The notes beneath the pieces are model-generated. The model did no database searches. It worked only from the letters and a program-made list of their open reading frames with translations, and was not told the origin of the DNA. A stretch of DNA of 8,675 nt, from the NCBI GenBank assembly GCA_017466965.1, contig JAFTTD010000072.1, positions 1 through 8,675 of the forward strand, in the 5' to 3' direction. A program made the translations under genes and the position numbers. Every line of letters begins with the position of its first letter. Positions within the stretch are counted from its first letter, which is position 1. The stretch comes from Bacteroidaceae bacterium. Lineage in GTDB: Bacteria; Bacteroidota; Bacteroidia; Bacteroidales; Bacteroidaceae. Shown here in pieces: positions 521-7,803 of this stretch.

Positions 521-1393
521 ATGAGTCTAAAAATCATTGTATTGGCTAAGCAGGTGCCTGACACACGAAATGTGGGCCCTGATGCTATGACTCCGGAAGG
601 AACTGTGAACCGTGCCGCTCTGCCGGCTGTGTTCAATCCTGAGGATTTGAATGCCTTGGAACAGGCGTTAAGATTGAAGGATGCAAATCCTGGTTCTACA
701 ATCACCATGATTACCATGGGTCTGCCTAAGGCCACTGAGGTTTTGCGCGAAGGCTTGTTCCGTGGTGCTGACGAGGGAGTGCTTCTTACTGACCGCGCTC
801 TCGGAGGTGCTGACACCCTTGCAACAAGCTACACCCTTGCTCAGGGTATCAAGAAGGTTGGCGACTATGACATTATTCTTTGCGGTCGTCAGGCTATTGA
901 TGGTGATACAGCTCAGGTTGGTCCTCAGGTGGCAGAGAAGCTTGGACTTACTCAGATTACTTATACTGAGGAGATACTTGAATGTACAAAGGACAAGATT
1001 GTTGCTAAGCGTCATATTGACGGCGGAGTGGAAACGGTTGAAGGCCCAATGCCTATCGTTGTGACTGTCAACGGAAGTGCAGCGCCATGCCGCAGCCGCA
1101 ATGCAAAGCTTGTGATGAAGTACAAGAAGGCAAAGACTCCGCAGGAGATTGCCGCTCTGAGCGAAGAGGAGCAGGCTTTCTATGCTGAGCGTCCTTACCT
1201 TAATATTAAGGTGTGGGGTGCTGCTGACATTGAGGCTGACCCTAACCAGATTGGAAAGGCTGGTTCGCCTACGAACGTGAAGTCTGTTAAGAATATCGTG
1301 TTCAAGGCTAAGGAGAATAAGACACTGACTGACAGCGACGCAGACGTTGAAAGTCTCATTGTTGAACTTTTGGAAAGCAATACCATAGGATAA
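521..1393 (+). CDS. etfB: Electron transfer flavoprotein subunit beta
   Basis: This is a 290-residue EtfB/FixA-family protein, the cytoplasmic partner of EtfA that passes electrons between an acyl-CoA dehydrogenase and other carriers. The N-terminus MSLKIIVLAKQVPDT is the typical first strand and turn of the family's nucleotide-binding fold. Residues 121-135, CGRQAIDGDTAQVGP, form the cofactor-binding loop; the DGDT form is the type associated with a second FAD rather than AMP. Residues 166-200 (ETVEGPMPIVVTV, then CRSRNAKLVMKYKK) match the conserved C-terminal part of the family. The frame is open from an ATG at 470, but the 17 extra residues there (MLSYERYYTY...) are not family-like and overlap the leader hairpin, so the ATG at 521, behind A-rich sequence, is preferred. 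First gene of the unit; etfA follows after 92 bases. Confidence 0.95.
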   Translation: MSLKIIVLAKQVPDTRNVGPDAMTPEGTVNRAALPAVFNPEDLNALEQALRLKDANPGSTITMITMGLPKATEVLREGLFRGADEGVLLTDRALGGADTLATSYTLAQGIKKVGDYDIILCGRQAIDGDTAQVGPQVAEKLGLTQITYTEEILECTKDKIVAKRHIDGGVETVEGPMPIVVTVNGSAAPCRSRNAKLVMKYKKAKTPQEIAALSEEEQAFYAERPYLNIKVWGAADIEADPNQIGKAGSPTNVKSVKNIVFKAKENKTLTDSDADVESLIVELLESNTIG

Positions 1394-1481: not shown

Positions 1482-1485
1482 TGAT

Positions 1486-2526
1486 ATGAACAGCGTATTT
1501 GTATATTGTGAACTTGAAGGCAACAAGGTTGCCGACGTAAGTTTGGAACTCCTGACAAAAGGACGCAAGCTCGCCAACAAGCTTGGCGTTGAACTTGAGT
1601 GTCTCTGCATTGGTAGCGGACTTGATGGAGTGGAGAAGCAGGTTATGCCTTATGGTGTTGACAAGGTGCACGTGTTTGATGCTGAGGGCTTGTTCCCTTA
1701 TACTTCACTTCCGCATACATCTGCAGTTGTGAATCTCTTCAAGGAAGAGCAGCCGCAGATTTGTCTGCTTGGAGCTACTGTGATAGGCCGCGACCTCGGT
1801 CCGCGCGTTTCTTCAGCATTGCATTCAGGTCTTACTGCCGACTGTACTCAGCTTGAAATCGGTTCGTTCGACATGAAGGTGAAGGATGCTGAAGGCAATT
1901 TCGTTGACAAGCACTATGAGGACCAGCTCTATCAGATTCGTCCTGCATTCGGCGGCTCAATCATTGCTACAATCGTCAATCCGGAACATCGCCCTCAGAT
2001 GGCTACAGTGCGTGACGGCGTGATGAAGAAGGAGATTCTTGACGAGAACTACAAGGGTGAGGTCATCAAGCATGATGTTGCAAAGTATGTGCCTACTACT
2101 GACTATGTGGTGAAGGTTCTTGACCGCCATGTTGAGAAGGCTAAGCATAACCTTAAGGGTGCGAACATCGTCATAGCCGGCGGTTATGGCGTAGGTTCAA
2201 AAGAGGGCTTCGACCAGCTCTTCGACCTTGCGAAGGAAATCCATGCAGAGGTGGGTGCAAGCCGTGCCGCTGTGGATGCAGGCTGGATTGACCATGACCG
2301 ACAGATAGGTCAGACAGGTGTAACTGTTCGTCCGAAGGTGTATATCGCTTGCGGTATCTCTGGAGCCATCCAGCATATTGCTGGTATGAAGGACAGTGGC
2401 ATCATCATCTCTATCAACAGTGATCCTAATGCGCCTATCAACCAGATTGCCGATTATATCATCAACGGCACTGTGGAAGAGGTTGTACCAAAACTCATCA
2501 AGTATTATAAGAAGAATAGTAAATAA
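1486..2526 (+). CDS. etfA: Electron transfer flavoprotein subunit alpha
   Basis: This is a 346-residue EtfA/FixB-family protein that carries the redox-active FAD in its C-terminal domain and pairs with EtfB. The N-terminal domain begins MNSVFVYCELEGNKV. ATVIGRDLGPRVSSAL (about 97-112) is a conserved N-domain motif. The FAD-binding domain shows GASRAAVDAGW (257-267), GQTG (275-278) and IACGISGAIQHIAG (about 287-300), the last being the classic EtfA signature, followed by SINSDPNAPI. The frame can be extended to a TTG at 1435, but those 17 residues come from the CTCAAAAA repeats and are Ser/Lys/Asn-rich, so the ATG at 1486 is the better start. The stop codon overlaps a TAAATAA direct repeat bounding the inserted four-helix-bundle cassette. 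Confidence 0.95.
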   Translation: MNSVFVYCELEGNKVADVSLELLTKGRKLANKLGVELECLCIGSGLDGVEKQVMPYGVDKVHVFDAEGLFPYTSLPHTSAVVNLFKEEQPQICLLGATVIGRDLGPRVSSALHSGLTADCTQLEIGSFDMKVKDAEGNFVDKHYEDQLYQIRPAFGGSIIATIVNPEHRPQMATVRDGVMKKEILDENYKGEVIKHDVAKYVPTTDYVVKVLDRHVEKAKHNLKGANIVIAGGYGVGSKEGFDQLFDLAKEIHAEVGASRAAVDAGWIDHDRQIGQTGVTVRPKVYIACGISGAIQHIAGMKDSGIIISINSDPNAPINQIADYIINGTVEEVVPKLIKYYKKNSK

Positions 2527-2530
2527 ATAA

Positions 2531-2604
2531 GGAGTTAAAAGGAGGAGTTAAAATAAGAAGTTAAAATAGGGAGTAAAAGAAGGAGTTAGGAAAGGGTGTT
2601 AAAA
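2531..2604 (+). repeat. Left array of GGAGTTAAAA-like repeats
   Basis: Degenerate copies start at 2531 (GGAGTTAAAA), 2544 (GGAGTTAAAA), 2557 (GAAGTTAAAA), 2570 (GAGTAAAA), 2582 (GGAGTTAGG) and 2596 (GTGTTAAAA). The period is about 12-13 bp. The array is the inverse complement of the array after the four-helix-bundle gene. GGAGGAG at 2541-2547 resembles a Shine-Dalgarno sequence but no start codon follows it. Confidence 0.8.
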
Positions 2605-2655
2605 GAAGATGCTATGAAGTGATGTTGAAAGAATCAAAGTTAAAGGGAAAATTGT

Positions 2656-3030
2656 ATGACACGAAATTATGAAGACTTGTTGGCTTGGCAGAAGGCACAT
2701 GAATTTGTGCTAAATGTATATCGTGTGACAGCTTTGTTTCCAGATGTAGAAAAATTTTGCCTCGTTTCACAATTTCGCAGGGCTGCAGTGTCTATCGCTG
2801 CAAATATAGCTGAGGGCTACAGGAAAATAGGTAAAGCAGATAAACTTCGTTTCTTGAATATGGCCCAAGGCAGTTTGGAAGAATGTAGATACTATATATT
2901 GTTGTCGAGTGATTTAAATTATATTAATGAAGAACAACGACAATCACTGCATTTGTTGCTCTACACTTGTAGTAGGCTTTTAAATTCATATTGTAAAGGT
3001 ATAGTCCAAAATAATGGAGTGTGTGATTGA
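2656..3030 (+). CDS. Four-helix bundle protein, S23 / 23S rRNA-intervening-sequence family
   Basis: A 124-residue protein, the usual length for this family. Hallmarks are NYEDLLAWQKAHEFVLNVY (4-22), TALFPDVEKFCLVSQFRRAAVSIAANIAEGYRK split around residues 25-57, the conserved NIAEG (50-54), FLNMAQGSLEE (about 66-76) and a final helix with repeated Leu. Family members form oligomeric four-helix bundles related to Avd, the accessory protein of diversity-generating retroelements. Their cellular role is not established, though a nucleic-acid-binding role has been suggested. The gene is much more A/T-rich than its neighbours: I count 15 G/C in 2881-2940 against 32 in 2281-2340. It lies alone between inverted repeat arrays inside an otherwise metabolic operon, so its job is probably tied to the repeats rather than to electron transfer. 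Confidence 0.9.
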   Translation: MTRNYEDLLAWQKAHEFVLNVYRVTALFPDVEKFCLVSQFRRAAVSIAANIAEGYRKIGKADKLRFLNMAQGSLEECRYYILLSSDLNYINEEQRQSLHLLLYTCSRLLNSYCKGIVQNNGVCD

Positions 3031-3042
3031 AATAGATACGTC

Positions 3043-3108
3043 TTTTTTTAACTCCTTTTTTTAACTTCCTAATTTAACTCCTAAACAAATATCTTACTCC
3101 TCATCTCC
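3043..3108 (+). repeat. Right array of TTTTAACTCC-like repeats
   Basis: Degenerate copies are TTTTAACTCC (3046-3055), TTAACTTCC (3061-3069), TTTAACTCC (3073-3081), CTTACTCC (3093-3100) and ATCTCC (3103-3108). They are the inverse of the array before the four-helix-bundle gene. The T-runs at 3043-3049 and 3056-3062 lie within the pairing arm, so the folded structure could also cause partial transcription termination ahead of the dehydrogenase gene. Confidence 0.8.
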
Positions 3109-3127
3109 TAAATAATAACAAAAAACA

Positions 3128-4837
3128 ATGGCTAACTCATATACAGATTATCCAGAATTAAGGTTCCACATGCAGCATGAACTCATGAAGAGAATCGTGG
3201 AACTAAAAGAACGTGGCTACGAAGACAAGGACAAGTATGACTATGCTCCGCAGAATTTTGAGGACGCAATGGACTCATACGACAAGACTCTTGAAATTGT
3301 AGGCGATGTTACAGCTAATGTTATAGCACCAAACGCTGAAGCGGTTGACGCTGAAGGTCCGCACTGCGAAAACGGACGAGTACGTTATGCTGCCAAGACT
3401 TACGAAAACCTTGACGCTACTATCAAGGCGGGAATGAATGGTATGACAATGCCGCGTCGTTACCAGGGACTGAACCTCCCAATAACAGTTTATACTGCTG
3501 CTAATGAGATTATCTCTGCAGGCGATGCCGGCTTTGAAAATATATGGTCACTTCAGGACTGTATTGAAACTCTCTATGAGTTCGGTAATGAAGATCAGCG
3601 TCAGCGCTTCATCCCTCGCGTATGCAAGGGCGAGACAATGTCTATGGACCTTACTGAGCCAGATGCAGGTTCAGACCTCCAGTCTGTGATGCTCAAGGCT
3701 ACATATTCAGAAAAGGACGGATGCTGGTTGCTCAACGGTGTGAAACGATTCATTACAAACGGTGATTCTGACATTCACCTCGTGCTTGCACGTTCTGAAG
3801 AGGGCACTCGCGACGGACGCGGTCTTTCAATGTTCATCTATGACAAGAATCAGGGAGGTGTGAATGTGCGCCGTATAGAGAACAAGATGGGTATTCACGG
3901 AAGCCCTACTTGTGAGCTTGTATATAAGAACGCTAAGGCAGAACTTTGCGGTGACCGCAAACTTGGTCTTATCAAGTATGTGATGGCTTTGATGAACGGT
4001 GCGCGTCTTGGTATCGCGGCACAATCAGTTGGTATTGAGCAGGCTGCATACGATGAGGCTTTGGCATACGCTCGCGACAGAAAACAGTTCGGAAAGGAAA
4101 TCATCAATTTCCCTGCTGTTTATGACATGCTTTCGCTCATGAAGGCTAAGCTTGACGCTGGTCGTTCACTCCTTTACATGACAGCACGCTATGTTGACAT
4201 CTACAAGGCGCTTGACGACATTGCACGCGATCGCAAGCTCGAACCAGAAGAACGCAAGGAACAGAAGACTTTTGCTAAACTTGCAGATGCGTTCACTCCG
4301 CTGGCTAAGGGTATGAACTCAGAGTTTGCAAACCAGAATGCATACGACTGTATTCAGGTGCATGGCGGCTCTGGCTTTATGATGGAATACAAGTGCCAGC
4401 AGCTCTATCGTGACGCACGTATCACAAGCATTTATGAAGGAACAACTCAGCTTCAGACTGTAGCCGCTATACGCTATGTTACAAACGGAACATACATCAG
4501 TGTGATTCGTGACTATGAGGCTGTTCCTGTTGCAGAGGAATACGAAGGATACATGAACCGAATAAAGGAGATGGCATCAAAGCTTGAAGCTGCAACAAAT
4601 GCAGTGAAGGACGCTAATGACCAGGAACTCCTTGACTTCTGCGCACGTAAGCTTTACGAAATGACTGCATATACAATCATGTGCCATCTTCTTCTTCAGG
4701 ATACACAGAAGGCACCTGAAATGTTCGCACGCAGTCTGAACGTGTTTGTGAATTATGCGGAAAGTGAAGTGGAGAAGCATTTCAACTATATCCGTAAGAT
4801 GGATGCAGCACAGCTTGCTAATTACCGTCAGGCATAA
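3128..4837 (+). CDS. Acyl-CoA dehydrogenase, long form with C-terminal extension
   Basis: A 569-residue FAD enzyme that interconverts acyl-CoA and 2-enoyl-CoA and exchanges electrons with EtfAB. The middle domain has MDLTEPDAGSD (173-183) and LNGVKRFITNGDSD (202-215). The C-terminal helical domain has NGARLGIAAQSVG (290-302) and YARDRKQFGKEI (314-325), then QVHGGSGFMMEY (410-421) and YRDARITSIYEGTTQLQ (427-443). Glu437 in IYEGT aligns with the catalytic base of short- and medium-chain enzymes. At 569 residues it is well above the roughly 380 of those classical enzymes: it has an extra N-terminal helix region and about 125 residues after the active site, as in the long-chain/DmdC-like branch. 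Substrate chain length cannot be read from sequence; a butyryl/crotonyl or branched short-chain substrate is plausible in an anaerobe. The ATG at 3128 follows A-rich sequence. The gene ends just before a strong terminator. Confidence 0.93.
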   Translation: MANSYTDYPELRFHMQHELMKRIVELKERGYEDKDKYDYAPQNFEDAMDSYDKTLEIVGDVTANVIAPNAEAVDAEGPHCENGRVRYAAKTYENLDATIKAGMNGMTMPRRYQGLNLPITVYTAANEIISAGDAGFENIWSLQDCIETLYEFGNEDQRQRFIPRVCKGETMSMDLTEPDAGSDLQSVMLKATYSEKDGCWLLNGVKRFITNGDSDIHLVLARSEEGTRDGRGLSMFIYDKNQGGVNVRRIENKMGIHGSPTCELVYKNAKAELCGDRKLGLIKYVMALMNGARLGIAAQSVGIEQAAYDEALAYARDRKQFGKEIINFPAVYDMLSLMKAKLDAGRSLLYMTARYVDIYKALDDIARDRKLEPEERKEQKTFAKLADAFTPLAKGMNSEFANQNAYDCIQVHGGSGFMMEYKCQQLYRDARITSIYEGTTQLQTVAAIRYVTNGTYISVIRDYEAVPVAEEYEGYMNRIKEMASKLEAATNAVKDANDQELLDFCARKLYEMTAYTIMCHLLLQDTQKAPEMFARSLNVFVNYAESEVEKHFNYIRKMDAAQLANYRQA

Positions 4838-4864
4838 TATCGGTTCTGCATAAATAATAGTGAA

Positions 4865-4916
4865 GAGGGTGTGTCAAAATGAATGCTACTATCATTTTGA
4901 CATACCCTCTGTTTTT
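4865..4916 (+). terminator. Strong intrinsic terminator after the acyl-CoA dehydrogenase gene
   Basis: GAGGGTGTGTCAAAATGA (4865-4882) pairs with TCATTTTGACATACCCTC (4892-4909): 18 base pairs including one G-T, with a 9-nt loop. TGTTTTTC follows, giving a 5-T run at 4912-4916. It lies 27 bases after the dehydrogenase stop codon and closes the etf unit. The GGGTGTGTCAAAA arms resemble sequences common in Bacteroidales intergenic regions (from memory, not checked). Confidence 0.9.
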
Positions 4917-5069: not shown

Positions 5070-5101
5070 CACTGATTTTAAGAATTTTCTAAACAATAGA
5101 T

Positions 5102-5194
5102 ATGAAAACTCACGCTTTTAACATGAATTTTGTACGTTTGTCATGGACAATGACAGAAGGTACGGCTGCTAAGGGTATGACCCTTAGGGGTTAG
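5102..5194 (+). CDS. Candidate thrA leader peptide, 30 residues, Thr/Met-rich
   Basis: An ATG at 5102, placed about 25 nt after the predicted transcription start behind A-rich sequence, opens 30 codons to a TAG at 5192. The peptide starts MKTHAFNMNFVRLSW and continues TMTEGTAAKGMTLRG. It has five Thr (3, 16, 18, 21, 27), three of them within codons 16-21, and four Met. Thr and Met are both products of the pathway that ThrA feeds. A hairpin lies over codons 13-18 (5137-5157) and another over codons 23-29 (5169-5187), with a possible terminator about 30 bases after the stop. This is the layout of a translational attenuator. The Thr run is less dense than in enterobacterial ThrL, so the ORF could instead be a chance reading frame or a small protein of other function. 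Confidence 0.45.
   Translation: MKTHAFNMNFVRLSWTMTEGTAAKGMTLRG
5137..5191 (+). promoter_or_regulatory. Hairpins within the thrA leader ORF
   Basis: TTTGTCAT/ATGACAGA gives an 8-pair stem (5137-5144 with 5150-5157, one G-T) and a 5-nt loop over the clustered Thr codons. CTAAGGGT-ATG-ACCCTTAG (5169-5187) is a perfect 8-pair stem with a 3-nt loop. ACCC (5180-5183) can alternatively pair with GGGT (5188-5191), which competes with the second stem. A translating or stalled ribosome would decide which of these can form. Confidence 0.55.
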
Positions 5195-5222
5195 GGTGTG
5201 TATATATATGAATCTATGTTTT

Positions 5223-5268
5223 GCGGTTTTAATATGACAGATTTTTATGCCGCTTTTTAATTAAAATC
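5223..5268 (+). terminator. Possible attenuator terminator and competing stem ahead of thrA
   Basis: GCGG (5223-5226) can pair with CCGC (5250-5253), extended by a T-G pair, and TTTTT (5254-5258) follows. This is a weak terminator-like stem with a large loop. GGTTTTAAT (5225-5233) can instead pair with ATTAAAATC (5260-5268), a 9-pair stem with one G-T, which excludes the first. Two exclusive states before thrA fit an attenuator, but the terminator stem is short. Confidence 0.3.
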
Positions 5269-5355
5269 AAAATCCATTTACGTAATCAAATAAGTTTTTT
5301 ATATCTGTTTTGTCATAGGATGTGACAGGGATGTAAGGATTATAACAATATCACA

Positions 5356-7803
5356 ATGAAAGTTTTGAAATTTGGTGGAACGTCCGTAGGTTCCGTAGAG
5401 AGTGTCCTTAACGTAAAGAGTATAGTTGAATCTTCAAAAGAATCGCTTGTAGTAGTGGTTTCGGCATTAGGTGGAATAACTGATAAACTTATTGCTGCAT
5501 CAAAATTGGCTCAGGCTGGCGACGTTGCATATCTGACAGAATATAACGAAATAGTTGAGCGTCATCATTCTATGATTGACGCTATAGTGAAAGACTATAC
5601 AAAGAAGGCAGCCTTGCTTTATGTTGTTGACGGGCTTCTTGCAGATTTGAAGAGCATCTATCAAGGTGTATATCTTATTAAGGATTTGTCTGAAAAGACA
5701 TCGAATGTAATAGTGAGTTATGGTGAGCGTATATCATCACGAATAGTAGCTTCCCTTGTTGACGGAGCTGAATGGGTTGATGCTCTTTCCTTGATAAAGA
5801 CTGAAAAGAAGCAGTGTAAAAACAGCCTTGTCACAGACTTGACATATTCTCTTGTTCGCGAAACCTTTGCAGGTTATACAGCAGATGGAGGTGAACGCAA
5901 AGTGGCTCTTGTGCCAGGATTTATTTCCACAGATATTCATACTGGTGAAGTTACAAACCTTGGGCGAGGCGGATCTGACTATACAGCAAGCATTATTGCA
6001 GCTGCATTAGATGCTGAGGCTCTTGAAATATGGACTGATGTTGATGGGTTCATGACTGCAGATCCAAGGGTTATAAACAATGCATACACTATAGACCGTC
6101 TGAGTTATGTTGAAGCTATGGAGCTGTGTAACTTTGGTGCGAAGGTGGTTTATCCGCCTACAATATACCCTGTTTGTATAAAAAACATACCTATATATAT
6201 AAAGAATACATTCTGTCCGGAAAGCAAAGGTACAGTGATAAGCAAGGATTGTGGTGATGAGAACAGGGCTATTAAGGGTATTTCGTCTATTAACGATACG
6301 AGTCTTATCACTGTTTCAGGTCTTTCTATGGTAGGCGTCATTGGTGTGAACCGCCGTATCTTTAGTGCGCTTGCAGACAGAGGAATAAGTGTGTTTATGG
6401 TAAGTCAGGCTTCTTCTGAAAACAGCACGTCAATCGGTGTGCGCAATGAAGACGCTGAGCTTGCTTGCGAAGTGCTTAACGAAGAATTCTCCAAGGAGAT
6501 AGAAATGGGCGCAATGTATAAGATGAACCTTGAGAGCAACCTTGCGACAGTGGCTATTGTAGGCGAAAATATGAAACATACTCCTGGTATTGCAGGAAAA
6601 TTGTTCGGAACTCTCGGGCGTAATGGAGTTAGTGTGATTGCGTGTGCTCAGGGAGCATCGGAAACAAACATTTCGTTCGTTGTAGAAAGTAAGCTCCTTC
6701 GTAAAACTCTTAATGTCATACATGACAGTTTTTTTCTTTCTGAATATCAGGTCCTGAACCTTTTCATTTGTGGTGTAGGAACCGTGGGAGGCAGTCTGAT
6801 TGAACAGATTGCAGGTCAGCGCGAAAAATTGATGAGGGACAGAGGACTTAAACTTAATGTTGTGGGTATTGCCAGCGGACATTATGCGATGTTCAATCGT
6901 GAAGGACTTGAGCTTGAAGGTTTTCGTGAACGTCTGAAACAGAGTGAGCCAAGCAATATCGAACGCCTGAAGAATGAGGTTATAGGAATGAATATATTCA
7001 ATTCGGTGTTCGTGGATTGTACCGCAAGCGATGATGTTGCGGCATTGTATAATGATTTCCTTGAACATAGTATATCTGTGGTGGCTGCAAACAAGGTGTC
7101 GGCATCTTCAGATTACGATAATTATGCAAAATTAAAAGCCACAGCCTTGAAAAGGGGTGTTAAATTCCTGTTTGAAACAAATGTGGGTGCAGGACTTCCT
7201 ATAATCAACACTATAAACGATTTGAAAAACAGTGGTGACCACATCCTGAAATTGGAAGCTGTGTTAAGTGGAACGCTGAACTTTATTTTCAATACAATCA
7301 GTGCTGAAATACCATTCAGCGAAACTGTGCGTATGGCTAAGGAAGAAGGATATTCAGAGCCTGATCCGCGAATTGATTTGAGTGGTAAGGATGTGATACG
7401 CAAACTTGTGATTCTGTCGCGTGAGGCTGGATACAAGATGAACCAGGAAGATGTGGAAAAACATCTGTTTATCCCTAATGAATTGTTTGAAGGTTCATTG
7501 GATGAGTTCTGGAAAAATCTTCCTGCCCTTGATGCTGATTTTGAAGCTCGTCGTAAGGTGCTTGAAGCTAACAAGAAGCATTGGCGATTTGTGGCGCGCC
7601 TTGAGGACGGCAAGGGCAGTGTGTCTCTGCAGGAGGTGAATGAACATCATCCTTTCTATGATCTTGAGGGAAGCAATAATATCATTCTCATAACAACAGA
7701 ACGCTATCATGAATATCCAATGCTCATACAGGGATATGGAGCAGGAGCCAGTGTTACAGCTGCAGGAGTGTTTGCGGATATAATGAGAGTGGCAAATATT
7801 TAA
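5356..7803 (+). CDS. thrA: Bifunctional aspartokinase / homoserine dehydrogenase
   Basis: An 815-residue cytoplasmic fusion, close to the length of E. coli ThrA (820). It phosphorylates aspartate (step 1) and reduces aspartate semialdehyde to homoserine (step 3). The kinase part shows KFGGTSVG (5-12), SYGERIS (121-127), NLGRGGSDYTA (201-211) and EIWTDVDGFMTADPR (224-238). Two ACT-type regulatory regions lie at about 315-385 and 396-460, where threonine feedback acts in homologues. The dehydrogenase part has the NAD(P) loop GVGTVGG (473-479), AANK (577-580), ETNVGAGLP (607-615), LSGTLNFIF (637-645) and EPDPRIDLSGKDVIRK (668-683). Glu668, Asp674, Asp679 and Lys683 match catalytic or binding residues known from yeast homoserine dehydrogenase. 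No frame breaks are seen. It follows a leader of about 280 nt and precedes an ApgM-like gene by 95 bases. Confidence 0.97.
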   Translation: MKVLKFGGTSVGSVESVLNVKSIVESSKESLVVVVSALGGITDKLIAASKLAQAGDVAYLTEYNEIVERHHSMIDAIVKDYTKKAALLYVVDGLLADLKSIYQGVYLIKDLSEKTSNVIVSYGERISSRIVASLVDGAEWVDALSLIKTEKKQCKNSLVTDLTYSLVRETFAGYTADGGERKVALVPGFISTDIHTGEVTNLGRGGSDYTASIIAAALDAEALEIWTDVDGFMTADPRVINNAYTIDRLSYVEAMELCNFGAKVVYPPTIYPVCIKNIPIYIKNTFCPESKGTVISKDCGDENRAIKGISSINDTSLITVSGLSMVGVIGVNRRIFSALADRGISVFMVSQASSENSTSIGVRNEDAELACEVLNEEFSKEIEMGAMYKMNLESNLATVAIVGENMKHTPGIAGKLFGTLGRNGVSVIACAQGASETNISFVVESKLLRKTLNVIHDSFFLSEYQVLNLFICGVGTVGGSLIEQIAGQREKLMRDRGLKLNVVGIASGHYAMFNREGLELEGFRERLKQSEPSNIERLKNEVIGMNIFNSVFVDCTASDDVAALYNDFLEHSISVVAANKVSASSDYDNYAKLKATALKRGVKFLFETNVGAGLPIINTINDLKNSGDHILKLEAVLSGTLNFIFNTISAEIPFSETVRMAKEEGYSEPDPRIDLSGKDVIRKLVILSREAGYKMNQEDVEKHLFIPNELFEGSLDEFWKNLPALDADFEARRKVLEANKKHWRFVARLEDGKGSVSLQEVNEHHPFYDLEGSNNIILITTERYHEYPMLIQGYGAGASVTAAGVFADIMRVANI

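Follow-up and report, generated by a model that had tools for sequence, protein, structure and literature searches.

A probable inserted cassette of inverted word arrays and one S23/IVP gene, related to 23S rRNA intervening sequences, inside a Bacteroidaceae etfA-dehydrogenase operon

Genes of the S23/IVP family are known from rRNA intervening sequences (IVSs) and are described as lacking a known function (PMC4990558). The window considered here, i.e. the whole 8,675-nucleotide stretch of Bacteroidaceae DNA that was analysed, raises the question of how such a gene comes to lie between etfA and an acyl-CoA dehydrogenase gene, and not inside an rRNA gene. The window is a Bacteroidales-type stretch that carries, in order, etfB (521..1393, the first of the etf pair, its start set by reading and the mechanical ORF running from 470), etfA (1483..2526), the S23/IVP four-helix-bundle gene (2656..3030), the acyl-CoA dehydrogenase gene (3128..4837, from the ORF list and a profile) and a long ORF (5356-7803) which we read, not from a profile, as an aspartokinase/homoserine dehydrogenase; the first four genes and the arrays described below are all on the plus strand. 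In profile searches the 124-aa product of ORF 2656-3030 matched PF05635 (E 3.2e-36, 124.2 bits, cut-off 33.8) as well as TIGR02436, and its solved relatives are 2gsc and 2rld, with five chains each. The description of this locus in an earlier note, as an S23/IVP gene between inverted arrays, is confirmed.

The left array (2531..2610, outer edge by fold) begins a few nucleotides past the etfA stop codon and consists of GGAGTTAAAA-type words in about six units of 12-13 nt, while the right array (3041..3108) holds the inverted words TTTAACTCC and similar; in register, six copies are found on the left at 12-13-nt spacing and three on the right at 13-nt spacing. Between 2531-2566 and 3046-3081 the arms can be paired without gaps along 36 positions, of which 29 are Watson-Crick and 2 are G-T, exactly as claimed earlier. 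The flanks have a complementarity score of 49; among 3000 N-free random windows with identical geometry, 4 reach 35. Folding of 2518-3120 as RNA gave -159.3 kcal/mol (z -4.5, from 20 shuffles only), and since the outermost pairs of this fold run from ~2530 to ~3109, a right edge at ~3108 is more likely than one at 3081, where the ungapped arm ends; the earlier note had left the choice between the two. S23 is the sole ORF of at least 60 aa within 2531-3108, hence the block has no transposase, as had been proposed. An Rfam scan of the window at the gathering threshold returned no match, and no reverse transcriptase was recognised among the window's large ORFs.

The TAAATAA words flanking the block had been suggested as a target duplication. 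They occur as overlapping copies at 2520..2530 (starting at 2520 and 2524, and including the etfA stop codon) and, by sequence match, beyond the right array at 3109..3115. As a target duplication this candidate is weak and was set aside as unsupported: the word consists of A and T only, holds a stop codon, is found also at 60, 166 and 4851, and has no homologous second copy in relatives. The 16-bp etfA-dehydrogenase gap left on removing the block plus one TAAATAA stands as arithmetic; in the two closest relatives the spacer measures 23 nt and holds no second TAAATAA. Likewise, retention of an ATG on the left side of the cassette was considered as a duplication signature, but its presence at L074, L163 and L170 among the filled etfA-dehydrogenase loci amounts to too few cases.

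Some further features of the window were observed outside this block. The etfB-etfA spacer (1394-1482) forms a hairpin (fold of 1391-1486, -22.2 kcal/mol, z -4.35), contains AACTCAAAAACTC-type words but no ORF, and is possibly an ORF-less relative of the cassette. Upstream of etfB, at 280-360, a 37-nt stretch (GAGGGCTCGTTT..TATAAAT) occurs in three direct copies spaced at 22 nt. A hairpin after the dehydrogenase gene (4864-4910; 19-nt arms, 95% complementary, 9-nt loop, followed by a T run) looks like a terminator, and a 30-aa ORF containing TMTEGTAAKGMT (5102-5194), ahead of the aspartokinase-like gene, may encode a leader peptide; folding of 5095-5360 reached a z of only -1.95.

If the block is an insertion, related genomes should include empty sites. 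EtfA was used to collect the best 80 loci out of a larger number, the dehydrogenase being present as well in 77. An S23 gene occupied the spacer in 12 of these 77 loci, in all 12 on the operon strand; in 42 the spacer was shorter than 50 nt, and in 23 it was of other kinds, among them ORF-less inverted inserts, unrelated small ORFs and one artefact of the start estimate (L076). A further locus, L032, in which S23 is cut by the contig end, was left uncounted. The nearest two relatives among the best 80 loci (EtfA 95% and 94%) have the 23-nt spacer and no S23, and at L130, a third near relative, the spacer is 129 nt long, also without S23. The contrast is clearest between G143 (filled) and G184 (empty): their flanks are 87.3% identical along 1942 bp on one side and 88.4% along 1689 bp on the other, and the distance between the matched flanks is 520 nt in the former and 17 nt in the latter. 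An independent set of 201 genomes yielded, among the listed places compared, at least nine S23 genes just upstream of the dehydrogenase and on its strand. The empty sites that the earlier note had proposed to look for were thus found in the closest relatives, and its proposal of an IVS-like cassette inserted in an operon is supported by these sites and by arrays around other S23 genes. It had also named three outcomes that would speak against insertion, i.e. no empty site, presence of the gene in all relatives, and other family genes free of arrays; the opposite was found in each case.

Other, unrelated small ORFs were read in the same spacer at L012, L019, L025, L060, L064-L067 and L075, and because they occupy it in some genomes the junction appears to accept several kinds of insert. 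G/C-rich, ORF-less inverted inserts with CCCCTCCCC words were observed in the spacer at L004, L008, L023, L027 and L037.

S23 matches are widespread in Bacteroidota, with at least 110 of 201 genomes in the family sample, 122 of 149 in the class sample and 116 of 148 in the phylum sample; the samples overlap and include metagenome-assembled genomes, and gene calls were naive. For flank analysis, 87 distinct loci and a further 53 from the class and phylum samples were used, which are mostly best-scoring matches and not random draws, and one (L193) had flanks too short to score. Across the remaining 86, the median complementarity of a locus's own flanks was 40.5 against 17 for flanks combined across loci, and 56 exceeded the cross-locus 95% point. 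Scores reached 29 in 64/86 and 35 in 55/86 (49/69 and 41/69 without the etfA-dehydrogenase loci), against 9/3000 and 4/3000 random windows without N, while 22/86 loci stayed below 29; given the relatedness among the S23 loci, p-values overstate independence. Similarly, 34 of the 53 class and phylum loci exceeded their own cross-locus 95% point. The profile behind the 87 loci, derived from proteins similar to that of the window, missed L089, L092, L095 and L097, four genes over the PF05635 cut-off that on reading all have array-like flanks. Of seven S23 loci read in four Fibrobacter genomes, clear inverted arrays could be recognised by eye in at least three (L345, L346, L350). Most other S23 genes thus have inverted arrays, in line with the earlier note, but their words are mostly their own and not of the GGAGTTAAAA type.

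This individuality of the words extends to single genomes. Ten of the 17 copies read in G261 (of 23 present) reached a score of 29, seven falling below, with words that vary from copy to copy, and all six copies read in G109 (of 13) reached it. No near-identical pair was present among these copies, the best pair having 75% nucleotide identity; because such copies are lacking among those read in two multi-copy genomes, active copying within a genome, a form of the mobility suggested earlier, is disfavoured. Conversely, the two arms of one copy belong together. At six recurrent junctions with 44 cassettes (L010, a near-copy of L009, being left out), own left-right matching summed to 1629. When right arms were exchanged between genomes within each junction, 5000 permutations averaged 1084 and did not exceed 1298. 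Comparison therefore indicates that the arms of a copy match each other while the words differ between copies.

The orientation of the genes is similarly non-random. With naive ORF calls, 72 of 87 loci have both neighbours on the same strand as S23, and among the other 15 at least six (L009, L010, L103, L123, L125, L170) are miscalls whose junctions read as codirectional; the class and phylum set gave 41 of 53. As a control, both neighbours were codirectional for 556 of the 1147 ORFs in sampled regions, and for 73 of 182 when the comparison was restricted to ORFs of similar size. Apart from etfA-dehydrogenase, recurrent junctions include sdhA-sdhB-, fadJ-fadI-, nuoC-nuoD- and groES-groEL-like ones, the latter four named from sequence and not profiled. 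The sense orientation suggests that the S23 gene may be expressed by read-through. Pairs of S23 genes separated by no more than ~2 kb were also observed (G335:C1:1511153/1512987, G346:C5:203830/205388, G339:C5:5723/7387), as if neighbouring junctions had been filled together.

A strict detector was applied for periodic inverted arrays irrespective of S23, and found seven in 1598 kb of six genomes, four enclosing S23 and three without it. The detector is insensitive, with four of the 11 S23 ORF pieces in the surveyed regions enclosed, and its counts are lower bounds both ways. By genome, G016 had one array in 400 kb (S23 not found), G401 none in 400 kb (11 S23), G007 none in 400 kb (one S23), G109 one in 180 kb (13 S23), G143 four in 118 kb (10 S23) and G084 one in 100 kb (11 S23), with no simple relation between array density and S23 richness across these six. 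The raw totals of inverted repeats in this survey may contain artefacts caused by N runs.

Evidence that arms and ORF can form one unit comes from L068, at the etfA-dehydrogenase junction, and L115, at a different junction, which align along 578 columns (73%) that take in both arms and the ORF; the aligned part starts and stops in the outer words or within ~30 nt of them, and the genes beyond differ. Arm words are also common to L101 and L108, which lie at different junctions. In a protein tree of 99 S23 sequences (128 columns, weak resolution), the 17 genes from the etfA-dehydrogenase junction do not form one group: seven changes are needed for the 17 rows, of which at least two are forced by strongly supported branches. 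L070 falls with L161 from another junction, and L115 falls among the etfA-dehydrogenase genes. Both S23 subfamilies are present at three junctions, which points to independent insertion. Estimates of dN/dS were 0.07 (L183/L192) and 0.09 (L068/L120), with 0.26 and 0.27 for two further pairs with usable dS and most remaining pairs saturated; by this comparison, purifying selection acts on the S23 protein in the few measurable pairs.

In combination, these observations favour the interpretation of ~2531-3108 as an inserted cassette of inverted word arrays and one S23/IVP gene, an intra-operon relative of the 23S rRNA IVS that spreads by rare insertion or transfer and whose arms are kept complementary at the DNA level, and we give this reading as a whole a probability of roughly 0.6. 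Sequence comparison shows that close relatives lack the block and that, in one clear case, arms and ORF form one unit across junctions.

Of the alternatives, the one that fares best places the pairing in RNA, the operon transcript folding the arms into a stem cut by RNase III as in the 23S rRNA IVS. It accords with the fold of the window, in which the arms form the outer stem (z -4.5), with the sense orientation of the cassettes, and with the Coxiella IVS, which has a 28-bp terminal stem and an S23 ORF and is excised by RNase III (PMC4990558). Selection on a sense RNA stem should leave G·U in excess of A·C among imperfect pairs. The opposite sign was observed: the 108 elements gave 147 G·U and 217 A·C, made up of 51 and 100 in the window-like subfamily, 46 and 53 in other Bacteroidaceae and 50 and 64 in the class and phylum set, and the cross-locus control gave 419 and 520. 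The sense-strand G·U excess was accordingly dropped as support for an RNA stem. A conserved box beside the arms in the window-like subfamily (A) does covary, over 13 loci and at two positions that each have a Fisher p of 0.005, in a lenient test: 16 loci matched on both sides, L118, L125 and L170 were dropped by eye, one of several matches was chosen in L119, and the loci are related. This covariation is compatible with pairing in RNA or in DNA. Because the G·U excess is lacking, upkeep of the arms at the DNA level is preferred, RNA pairing as a maintained feature is not supported, and we regard the RNA-level explanation as unlikely, at perhaps one chance among several.

A still less probable explanation makes S23 an old member of these operons, long resident and often lost, with spacers that carry regulatory hairpins and without mobility. 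The etfA-dehydrogenase genes are indeed more clustered in the tree than expected, none of 500 shuffles giving as low a value, and because of this clustering inheritance with loss explains part of the pattern; several junctions, moreover, hold closely related S23 genes in different genomes. Against long residence stand the mixing of subfamilies at three junctions, the grouping of L070 with L161 and of L115 with the etfA-dehydrogenase genes, the arms and ORF common to L068 and L115, and the spread of 170 cassettes (140 S23 and 30 GxxExxY, see below) over 123 junction keys. That the arrays are ordinary intergenic repeats which exist without S23, and on which S23 merely lands, is very improbable: ORF-less inverted inserts do occur at the etfA-dehydrogenase junction (L005, L036, L039, L045, by reading) and three of the seven periodic arrays lack S23, but such arrays are rare under the strict detector (lower bounds) with four around S23, and the arm words shared by L068/L115 and by L101/L108 at different junctions argue that arms can travel with the ORF.

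The architecture is not confined to one gene family. Among 183 ORFs of 100-170 aa in sampled regions, five had flank complementarity of at least 35, comprising three S23 genes, one other ORF and one GxxExxY gene (TIGR04256 E 2.4e-43, PF13366 E 7.4e-42). The latter, of the PD-(D/E)XK superfamily, lies at L318:1666-2038 on the minus strand with inverted word arrays around it. GxxExxY genes between inverted arrays, with words such as ACACAGAG or CGCAGATT, were then read at L351-L380, and PF13366 is present in 104 of 149 class genomes. Across the 30 best-scoring GxxExxY loci the median own complementarity was 33 against 18, with 18 loci reaching 29 and 13 reaching 35, and both neighbours were codirectional in 24. 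One architecture thus carries two unrelated ORFs, S23 and the nuclease-superfamily GxxExxY.

Taken together, the course of events favoured here starts with a relative of the 23S rRNA IVS that is now found within operons, placed in sense orientation between two genes and spread by rare insertion or horizontal transfer and not by fast copying. Template switching at the hairpin, with slippage between words, would rewrite the word locally while the arms stay complementary, and because of such rewriting the locus-specific words would be explained as well. The S23 protein, a relative of the pentamer-forming retroelement protein Avd, probably binds the hairpin, and GxxExxY cassettes may be a helper in insertion; that these nuclease-like cassettes help S23 cassettes to move is speculation. 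A bolder generalization, offered tentatively and with the odds somewhat against it, is that Bacteroidota and at least some Fibrobacter harbour a cassette class defined by architecture, with one small ORF (Avd-like S23 or PD-(D/E)XK-type GxxExxY), a word rewritten at each locus and arms copied onto each other, so that terminal inverted repeats would be regenerated and not inherited as sequence. Should many S23 genes of one phylum lie in operon spacers between self-matching, locus-specific inverted arrays, they would provide a large natural data set on the role of S23, the making of the arrays and a possible partnership with nuclease-like GxxExxY genes, and would explain many cases in which a conserved operon is broken up by an annotated 'four helix bundle protein'. 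No description of intergenic S23 or GxxExxY cassettes was recognised in searches of open-licence PMC papers.

The closest known system is the IVS of Coxiella: 428 nt in 23S rRNA, with a 28-bp terminal stem, excised by RNase III, and with heptamer tandem repeats preceding an S23 ORF described as decaying and as probably silent (PMC4990558). The two have in common an S23 ORF in the loop of complementary arms, a short insert without a transposase, and short tandem repeats near the ORF. The present cassette differs in lying in an operon spacer and not in rRNA, in arms that are multi-unit, copy-specific word arrays, and in an S23 protein that is under purifying selection in the measured pairs. IVP ORFs are likewise reported in rRNA insertions of CPR bacteria (PMC11270868). 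The window protein is a clear member of PF05635/TIGR02436 (2gsc, 2rld), models that cover the protein only and not the arrays. PF05635 is said to resemble Avd (PMC10053308); the window S23 shares the broader fold group of Avd/bAvd while scoring below both Avd cut-offs (35.8 against 80 bits and 28.6 against 40 bits).

As with the cassettes, REPIN/RAYT and MITE-type elements link short intergenic palindromes to a small gene family. Unlike these elements, the cassettes have no transposase and no palindrome sequence common to the copies of a genome. Unlike an insertion sequence or transposon, they have inverted arms with copy-specific words, no family-wide terminal repeat and, among the copies read in G261 and G109, no near-identical copies (best 75% nt). 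The cassettes are consequently filed as a variant of the IVS kind, with an S23 ORF and complementary ends, in operon spacers, and not as rRNA IVSs.
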